This document shows positions 439 to 36,587 of a stretch of 64,000 bases of DNA, piece after piece. How positions within the stretch are numbered: position 1 is the first letter of the stretch; each line of letters begins with the position of its first letter. Source of the DNA: Dillenia suffruticosa. Taxonomy: Eukaryota; Streptophyta; Magnoliopsida; Dilleniales; Dilleniaceae. Location: assembly GCA_033439265.1 (NCBI GenBank), contig JAVTVX010000009.1, positions 1,167,609 to 1,231,608 of the forward strand, read 5' to 3'. The notes under the pieces are model-generated. The model made no database searches. It saw only the letters and a program-made list of their open reading frames with translations, and was not told the DNA's origin. The position numbers and the translations under genes are program-made.

Positions 439-2244
439 CTCACATTTCTGCACCAGAGATACCCAGAGATATTTGCAATGCCCAGGAGTTCTGTTGAACC
501 CGATGGCGTGCAAATTTGCAGATATCTCTTCCCAAAGTGACATCCTCCCCTTCACAACTTGGAACCTATTATTGAGGTCACCACGCATCCTAACCAGCTT
601 CCTAATCTCTTCAGGTTTCCATTTATTTTACTTAATAGACTTTGAAGACTTTGATCCAGTATCCCGTGTGACAGTTCTTGACCGTTTTGCGTACCACTTA
701 TCTCGGGCTCATTTACATATTCTCTCTGGGAAGCAGAGCCATTCTTCTATTTCTCTAATTGTTCAAACAATGATGGGGTTGATCTCATGAAAGACTTCCA
801 GAAAGCTTCTGGTGAGGAGCTTGTTCCTCCAATCTAGAGCTTGAAGAAGTATCTTCCTCAGGCAGTAGTCTTTCACCCGCAACCATGTCATCTGCAACAA
901 ATAGCATGATTGCAACCATCCATTAGATGATGTGTTCTGAATTTATATTTCGGCCAACGAACACATTTTGCATGCACAGTTTAAATTGAACTTTCTTCCA
1001 ATGCAGTATACAGGGAAGAGTGTCCAAGGCAGACTTTACAAAGCAGCTGTTCCTCGGAACCAGAACCTGCAAAAGTTCAGGTACTTGAAGGCATAGAGTT
1101 CTGAATTGTACAAATTACTGTTCAATGTGGCTTGCAATAGCATGTTGGCCAGTCAACTTGTGTCCATCGTCAATTTCATTAACAAAAACAGGTGCCTTGG
1201 ACAGACCAGGCCTTTGTACCCAAGACATGAACATACAAGTCATCAACTTAGGGGATGCACATGCATATTTAAAACAACCAATCAGACCAGACACAACTAA
1301 AACACAAGGCCATGGAAAAATTCGTGAAAAGCAAAGGCATAATTCTGATAAAGACAGACAAATCATGGCTGAAGAGAACAACAAATTTTGCATAGCCCCC
1401 AAAGAATCAACAAGGTGCACTCTTATCCAAACAGTAGAAATTACTTCTTCCTCATGTATTCTGCTTGAATGTCTCCCTCTGGGATGCCCATCAATTACTC
1501 TTTTCAATGCCGATATACCAAAACCATATTCTGGCTTGCCAGAAAGCCTTGAATTTACCTCATCTGAGATAACTACAGCAGGATTTTCCATGGCAATGGC
1601 AATAACCTCCGGTCTTTTACTGCTGTACGTCCTCACCATTTTTCTTAATACCTCCGAAACTGTTTTTCCATATGGGCAAGTGGACAATTAATGGGACAGC
1701 TGGAAAGTGCAGCATGGGCAGCTTGTGAAGTGCATCCAAAAGTTTTTCCTTGTCAAGCCATAAGCCACGCGTGGTGATTCTTATTTTCCCTTTTATGCTT
1801 CTCTCCATCATCCCATCAAAATTTTGTGGACGAAAAATTTCCATGCTGCAATAAAAATACGAATCTTCTATAAATACGTAAAAGAAAAGCATTCGCACTG
1901 CCAACCTATAAATAACAATTACCTGACAATAATAGTGCCATCTGATGCAATTCTTAGCCTCTCGTCTACACACAATTCAGCAGATGTCCCAAATGCTTTA
2001 TCACCATCACTATACATCAACTGCAATTTGAAAGTGCATCACATTGATCTCTTCTTGTATGCATATTCCCCCCCCCCAAAAAAAACCCACAACATAAATA
2101 TGCACACCCTCTCCCCAAACAAAATGGACATAGAAGATAGATTAAAAGAATGCCGAACAAGCCTACTAATAATAGACAAAAATGAAATATCATCTCTTGC
2201 TAACCTGTAAATTCTCTCTTCCAAGTGCAATAAAACCATCACGA
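439..2244 (-). pseudogene. RNJ: RNase J C-terminal half, decayed (GT-1 domain remnant)
   Basis: Fossil of plant RNase J, an organellar ribonuclease with a metallo-beta-lactamase core and a plant-specific C-terminal GT-1 (trihelix-like) domain. Reading the minus strand, exon-like blocks lie at about 2244-2207, 2024-1923 ([20 protein letters not shown], then a GT donor), 1844-1445 ([19 protein letters not shown], then [20 protein letters not shown]) and 891-439 ([17 protein letters not shown], then [16 protein letters not shown]). Block order and splice signals fit the family. Two single-base losses lie between 1735 and 1660 (after LLDALHK and at the poly-A before KTVSEVL), and stops and shifts break 891-650. 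The catalytic metallo-beta-lactamase part is not seen upstream, where CPI1 remains begin. The final exon may lie left of the window. Homology is from remembered family sequence. Confidence 0.85.
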
Positions 2245-2339
2245 GAGTTTAACAAAACTGACAGTTTCAGGTAGGGGATTACTAATGGTTCGATAGGCAC
2301 CTCCAGGGAAAATAACAGGTGCCACTTCTCATACCTGCA

Positions 2340-35600: not shown

Positions 35601-36587
35601 AGCTTATCCTATTTGCTGCGTGTCTCAAGTTTGTGAAATAGGCCTTAAAACAAAATTTGCATCCACCCCTTCTGGGTAATACTGCCTCATTATATTTAAG
35701 TGTTGCCATTGTCTTAATGATTGGTGATGCATAAAATTCTGGGCGCTTGTACTTATGGAAGCTTTCCAAGATGACCTTTGGCCCTTGTATGGGAGTCATG
35801 CTGAATTATCCTTTTTTTTTTTTGGGTTTAAGAGCCCCATGAGATCTTTCCTTAGGATTACAGTATGGTGAAATTCACTCTAGAATCATTTATCTTGTTT
35901 TTAACTAAAGAAATAATGCTATATGTATAAAAAAAAGTCAAACCAAATGTATCGAATCTTATGTGATTTATAGGCTTAAATTTTTAATGGTGTGCTCCCC
36001 AATGCCCAATAAAATGTTGCTACATTAGATATGCCTCTGTTGATCCTTTTCAAGCACTCATCATACACTGCATTCTGTAGCAGCCATTAGAGATCCACAA
36101 TCATGGTTCAGGGCTTTAGGGTAGTAGCAAACAATCAAGTAATCTTTAGCAAACATTATGAAGTTGCTGCAGCAACCATTAGTGATGACTTTTTTTAGTA
36201 ATCAAGTAATCTGAGTTTTTTTACAGGTTGTAATTGTTTCACATCATTATCTTTAATGAGCTAATAATGTGACTCCAGTACAACGCTCATCTTCTTTGAG
36301 TGGAAAGCAACCATGAGGCCATGCCACTTTAGCTCTCTATCTAGGCTAACATTTATCTACCTATCCCTTACATTTTTGGCAGTTCATGTGATTTGGTGCC
36401 AATTAGATCATTCCTATATCACCATTGATTGATGGTCTGCATCAAATGCATGTTGACTTATTGTGTTTTTCTTCTGTCTCTAAAGGTAATTGATTACTAC
36501 AACAAGAAGGGCATTGTTGCAAATCTTCATGCAGAGAAACCCCCAAAGGAAGTCTCGGCTGAGGTTCAAAAGGTGCTTTCTTCATGA
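32665..36587 (+). CDS. Adenylate kinase, cytosolic/mitochondrial long type
   Basis: Six exons: 32665-32776, 33895-34040, 34119-34238, 34328-34495, 35488-35577 and 36486-36587, all GT-AG and in phase, giving 245 aa, the usual size for plant adenylate kinases of the rice ADK-A / Arabidopsis At5g63400 type. It catalyses ATP + AMP = 2 ADP. Seen in order: P-loop [10 protein letters not shown] (split by intron 1), AMP-site [22 protein letters not shown], the long LID ([32 protein letters not shown]) and a C-terminus [20 protein letters not shown]. All catalytic motifs are intact. The 5' leader has a long CT run. Intron 4 ends with a duplicated acceptor (separate entry) that could add 38 residues in the LID region. 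Confidence 0.97.
35287..35510 (+). repeat. Tandem duplication of intron 4 acceptor and exon 5 start
   Basis: Two ~112-base copies, about 35287-35396 and 35397-35510, share CAAATAGC, TTATGCTTATAAATTCATG, TCTTTCTTCT-ATTGTTACAAG and GTCA-TGGAGAA. Each copy carries the polypyrimidine tract, the acceptor AG (35373 and 35487) and the first ~12 conserved bases of exon 5. The acceptors are 114 bases apart, exactly 38 codons, with no stop between them in frame. Confidence 0.85.

Follow-up and report, generated by a model that had tools for sequence, protein, structure and literature searches.

Two-way loss of duplicate genes between two collinear blocks of the Dillenia suffruticosa genome

The closest described system for the loss of genes from duplicated blocks is maize. 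In the available text of the maize study, fractionation proceeds mainly by short deletions (5-178 bp in exons) flanked by short direct repeats, with losses biased towards one homeolog, and longer deletions are admitted as infrequent (PMC2893956). As regards the age of the duplication, the closest comparison is offered by Toona. The available parts of the Toona papers give a Ks peak of 0.1365 and a 4DTv of 0.0530 for the T. sinensis duplication (PMC9602400), and Ks values of 0.1474 and 0.17 for that of T. ciliata, together with a second Toona 4DTv value of 0.0585 (PMC9602400, PMC13063475). The T. ciliata event at Ks 0.17 is described there as preceded by the core-eudicot triplication only, and neem (Azadirachta indica) as lacking the recent event (PMC13063475).

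The stretch of DNA analyzed here, referred to as the window, comprises 64,000 nucleotides of D. suffruticosa (C9:1167609-1231608). Coordinates without a contig name are window positions, and negative values lie to its left. The genome searched consists of 596,357,000 bases in 37 contigs, and the comparison stretches were C15 1030001-1170000, of which 5,000 bases are N, together with the 30 kb that flank the window to its left and to its right. Gene models were built with a purpose-written spliced aligner, using the C15 protein, the window protein or a guide protein as reference. The guides for RNase J, CPI1, the RID3-like gene, NOP56, the adenylate kinases and the aminopeptidase were approximate, Arabidopsis-type sequences. 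The term "open" denotes a sequence without a stop or frameshift and is not equivalent to "functional". Ks and Ka/Ks were calculated by the Nei-Gojobori method.

A collinear block on a second contig

A genome search with adenylate kinase returned 35 matches, among them the two genes of the window and two further ones on C15 (1077697 and 1095957), which served as the pointer to a twin block. The collinear twin of the window is located on C15 near 1.03-1.15 Mb. Plus-strand matches run in one order between window positions 33-60549 and C15 1051779-1116815, with 68-89% identity in the listed collinear pieces, and the alignment extends over approximately 39,000 columns with 11.3% mismatch, some overlapping matches being counted twice. 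Such ordered matches on a single strand exclude chance. The collinearity continues, with gaps, beyond the window on both sides (-20239 to 92547 versus C15 1030001-1145146), and in this extended comparison the order is broken only by local tandem repeats and by a single piece that aligns with C15 1169104-1170000. The parts of the window without a clear C15 counterpart are positions 48997-58351 and the final 3.5 kb.

There is consequently a second block, collinear with the first and carrying many genes in shared order, as is required of a homeolog. With a probability of about 0.93, the window and C15 1.03-1.15 Mb are homeologs that stem from a single, fairly recent whole-genome duplication, and their duplicate genes are returning to single copy. 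The strongest competing explanation is that C9 and C15 are linked by a recent segmental duplication, with which the extent of the C9 comparison, about 112 kb, would be compatible. However, scattered search matches pair the two contigs further along, through papain-type genes (C9:1598010 and C15:1512935) and LRR kinases that each have a 973-codon frame (C9:2330316 and C15:2750803), and they place other contigs (C17/C20 and C12/C27) in parallel order in the same way. A purely segmental origin is therefore very improbable. Papain-type protease genes also form a tandem array at C31:18084194-18500132. The best genome match to actinidain reaches 56%, and the best stretches for Mal d 1 reach 54-64%; as far as these two proteins can tell, the values argue against kiwifruit and apple/pear as the source.

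Gene states in the two blocks

The features of the window are listed below with coordinates, strand and, in parentheses, the type of evidence.

439..2240, minus strand: RNase J fossil, 3' exon remnants equivalent to residues about 507-851 of the C15 gene (spliced alignment to the C15 protein; genome-wide search)
2211..2247, no strand: deletion junction (left side matches C15 up to 1053686, right side from C15 1067207)
3035..5085, minus strand: CPI1 (cycloeucalenol cycloisomerase) fossil, with exon 1 (two frameshifts) and exons 2 and 3; exons 4-7 missing (spliced alignment versus the C15 gene)
6869..10450, plus strand: RID3-like WD40 gene, open; C15 copy broken (spliced models, Pfam, genome search)
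12024..15196, plus strand: adenylate-kinase-like gene, which we take to be ADK7-type, open in both copies (spliced model, Pfam)
16023..18919, minus strand: LRR receptor kinase fossil with five stops and four frameshifts; C15 copy open (spliced alignment)
21863..23266, minus strand: mTERF gene, a single open frame of 467 codons (ORF, Pfam, genome search)
24853..28455, plus strand: NOP56 gene, open in both copies, with an incompletely modelled lysine-rich tail (spliced model)
32665..36584, plus strand: adenylate kinase gene with six exons and no lesion, open in both copies (spliced model, Pfam)
40107..44383, minus strand: aspartyl aminopeptidase (peptidase M18) gene, open in both copies (spliced model)
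48997..58351, no strand: 9.35-kb stretch in place of which C15 has 45 bases (window/C15 comparison)

Nine genes were modelled in both copies: four of them are open on both contigs, three on C15 alone and two in the window alone. The adenylate kinase, ADK7-like, NOP56 and aminopeptidase genes are free of stops and frameshifts on either contig. The remaining five of the nine have one open copy and a broken partner at the collinear place. For RNase J, CPI1 and the LRR kinase the broken copy is that of C9 and the open one that of C15; for the RID3-like gene and mTERF the situation is the opposite. An earlier note on this DNA had assigned it to one subgenome of a duplication, with an intact adenylate kinase, fossils of RNase J, CPI1 and an LRR kinase, and the RID3-like, adenylate-kinase-like, mTERF and NOP56 genes between them. 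All of these genes are present in the sequence at confirmed positions, and the proposed homeology is backed by the collinear C15 twin. The note's own test, a search for a second locus with intact RNase J and CPI1 and shared neighbours, did not refute the proposal, as C15 carries open RNase J, CPI1 and LRR kinase genes together with the same neighbours. Its description of fractionation caught part-way, with genes still readable as pseudogenes, likewise agrees with the broken window copies set against the open C15 copies. The view that decay is confined to one subgenome must be abandoned, given the state of the RID3-like and mTERF genes. The possibility that the fossils are processed (retro-) pseudogenes was considered and excluded, because they retain intron positions.

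The RNase J fossil includes a further exon to the left of the window (-530 to -610). Together, its seven aligned segments correspond to residues 507-878 of the C15 gene, with 309 of 363 residues identical, two stops and four frameshifts. The C15 gene has 18 exons covering residues 1-879 of the 880-residue guide (639/871 identical), contains no stop or frameshift and closes with a stop codon; its Pfam domains are metallo-beta-lactamase, beta-CASP, RMMBL and Myb/trihelix. Among the matches listed in the genome-wide search, the catalytic part occurs on C15 only and the C9 matches span residues 516-878, the remaining listed matches being 28-35% identical and limited to residues 758-875.

The CPI1 fossil is identical to the C15 gene at 82 of 96 residues. 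The C15 copy has seven exons without a lesion (218/279 residues identical to the guide) and a stop after PGHAQ. The first modelled exon contains no in-frame ATG, but a very short upstream exon, ATGG with GT directly after it, is compatible with either copy; the C15 gene would thus start with a first exon of four bases. A Pfam search of CPI1 returned no family, and consequently the name depends on the guide. Since a second CPI1-like gene is found at C31:12427178-12431788 (exon matches 58-87% identical among the best 6 of 14 matches), the C15 copy may not be the sole working one.

A single junction on C9 joins sequences that lie 13.5 kb apart on C15, which has cost RNase J its 5' part and CPI1 its 3' part. 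The C15 interval absent from the window carries the RNase J 5' exons and CPI1 exons 4-7. These exons are ancestral according to the guides, and C9 has therefore undergone a deletion, as opposed to C15 having gained an insertion. A portion of the 13.5 kb may be a later C15 insertion; reverse-transcriptase/RNase H-like frames, named by eye, are located between RNase J and CPI1 on that contig. The junction itself displays imperfect microhomology only. A direct repeat was rejected as the cause of the deletion: the best one at both C15 ends (12/13 bases) is retained twice in the window and is thus not the joining point. The earlier note had listed RNase J and CPI1 as two decayed genes. Both are indeed broken, but for the most part they represent the stumps on either side of this one deletion and not two independent cases of decay.

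The LRR kinase fossil shares 608 of 724 residues with the C15 gene, in which exon 1 is a single 487-codon frame and the whole-gene model is free of lesions, apart from one spurious short intron that the model places inside this open frame. In the opposite direction, the C15 copy of the RID3-like gene has five stops and four frameshifts relative to the window protein. Among the best 12 of 29 genome-wide matches, close RID3-like copies occur only in the window and on C15, and the name is a loose one, as agreement with the RID3 guide is limited to 134 of 380 residues. Of mTERF, C15 retains a short remnant only (37 residues at 73%), and the next relative, on C29, is at 41%.

In the right part of the window, an O-fucosyltransferase exon (47060-47227), which stands outside the count of nine, is conserved on C15, and a short AMP-binding enzyme fragment at 62569-62655 falls under the Pfam cut-off. 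The extra 9.35 kb may reflect either loss on C15 or insertion on C9. A search of this stretch for terminal repeats yielded simple GA repeats only. The stretch contains fragments of a gene of glycosyl hydrolase family 1 (49139-49874, minus strand), and no such gene was found in C15 1030001-1170000.

Age and course of the losses

The Ks values of the retained pairs are 0.099 for adenylate kinase, 0.098 for the ADK7-like gene, 0.175 for NOP56 and 0.217 for the aminopeptidase. Pooled, these four pairs give a Ks of 0.160 (0.134-0.193) and a Ka/Ks of 0.12 (0.09-0.16). For the fossils, Ks and Ka/Ks amount to 0.210 and 0.32 (0.21-0.52) in RNase J, 0.241 and 0.33 (0.24-0.43) in the LRR kinase, and 0.201 and 0.59 (0.41-0.85) in the RID3-like gene. 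Transversions at fourfold degenerate sites separate the window and C15 at 73 of 1,125 sites in seven genes (4DTv 0.065). The pooled Ks is near the published Toona peaks (0.137-0.17), which indicates a young duplication and not the ancient one assumed in the earlier note. The spread of Ks exceeds that allowed by one age and equal rates, both for seven genes (chi-square 20.2, p 0.0025) and for the four retained pairs (12.4, p 0.006). Both adenylate kinase pairs (12024-15196 and 32665-36584) have a Ks of around 0.10, roughly half the value seen in the remaining genes of the block. Intron and flank divergence is similar at adenylate kinase (14.5%) and at the fossils (13.5-17.5%), and wholesale conversion of the adenylate kinase locus is therefore not indicated.

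The exons of the LRR kinase, RNase J and RID3-like fossils contain 10, 6 and 7 indel events, respectively, most of 1-6 bases. Direct repeats of at least 3 bp are found at three of the nine exon deletions of at least 3 bp. Beyond the large deletion, the remaining damage consists of small indels and stops. When the C29 paralogue is taken as outgroup (552 triplets), the LRR kinase shows 32 changes on the window lineage and 11 on that of C15 at codon position 1, 23 and 9 at position 2, and 31 and 19 at position 3; amino-acid changes number 44 on the window lineage versus 5 on that of C15, the outgroup itself having three in-frame stops.

It could be argued that the fossils are assembly or sequencing errors in a single real gene set, as the comparison drew on the assembled sequence. 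However, the lesions occur in exons that have diverged by 9-11%, together with an elevated Ka/Ks and amino-acid changes specific to one lineage, while the adenylate kinase control, a retained neighbour on the same contig, has no indel in 732 exon columns, which leaves almost no room for this explanation. That the fossils date back to an earlier event, the gamma triplication or similar, is scarcely credible: an older related set of adenylate-kinase-like, LRR kinase and mTERF matches does exist on C29 at 1.034-1.059 Mb, but the fossils differ from C15 by a Ks of only 0.20-0.24, whereas the C29 copies have only 41-56% protein identity. The matches at C29:1034664-1058967 follow the window order, and this region is probably an older paralogous block.

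Under the preferred explanation, a fairly recent whole-genome duplication, selection would be relaxed on whichever copy is redundant, and point lesions would then build up along a pseudogene route. One longer deletion would have removed parts of two neighbours, RNase J and CPI1, together, and the losses would have been staggered over time. If the working copy has a Ka/Ks of 0.12, the estimated fraction of time without constraint is highest in the RID3-like gene, at 1.07 (0.66-1.66), compared with 0.45 (0.20-0.91) in RNase J and 0.48 (0.27-0.70) in the LRR kinase; with a working-copy Ka/Ks of 0.25, the estimates become 0.91, 0.19 and 0.21, respectively. These values hint at an early death of the RID3-like copy and a later one of the other two, the intervals being overlapping. 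Three genes have been lost on C9, two of them via one deletion, and two on C15. Losses are thus not concentrated on one homeolog in this block, and three versus two are too few to represent the genome.

Comparison with known systems

Fractionation itself is a known process; the two-way loss at this block is a new finding, and the block is unusually legible. A literature search combining RNase J, duplication and pseudogene gave best matches that were off topic, and one using reciprocal-loss terms jointly gave no match. Fractionation is commonly scored as presence or absence, while open and broken pairs in both directions allow the order and the route of loss to be followed gene by gene. With point lesions and one two-gene deletion as routes, the block is a good case for teaching and measuring. 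It also constitutes a small test of the repeatability of gene loss across plant families. In two Arabidopsis blocks derived from an independent duplication, adenylate kinase is presumably duplicate and RNase J, CPI1 and the LRR kinase single copy. The earlier note names At5g63400, At5g63410 and At5g63420, and At5g50370 with At5g50375, as adjacent genes in these blocks; among the 12 papers listed in a search for the locus codes, none contained At5g63410. A repeatable outcome, with adenylate kinase kept twice and the other three genes returned to single copy, is conceivable, though rather unlikely; duplicate survival would then be set by the gene, and the choice of the losing chromosome would be near random, as the two-way losses suggest.

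The likeness to maize, as described in the available text, is that duplicates are lost from either homeolog while the neighbours stay, and that deletions are seen (PMC2893956). In contrast to maize, a junction spanning 13.5 kb took parts of two genes here, and the damage otherwise consists of stops and 1-68 bp indels in legible pseudogenes; the losses also fall on both homeologs, unlike the bias reported in that text (PMC2893956). With regard to age, the Ks and 4DTv of the Toona/Cedreloideae duplication agree with the values of 0.160 and 0.065 obtained here. The available parts of the Toona papers present genome-wide averages and do not describe the present locus (PMC9602400, PMC13063475).
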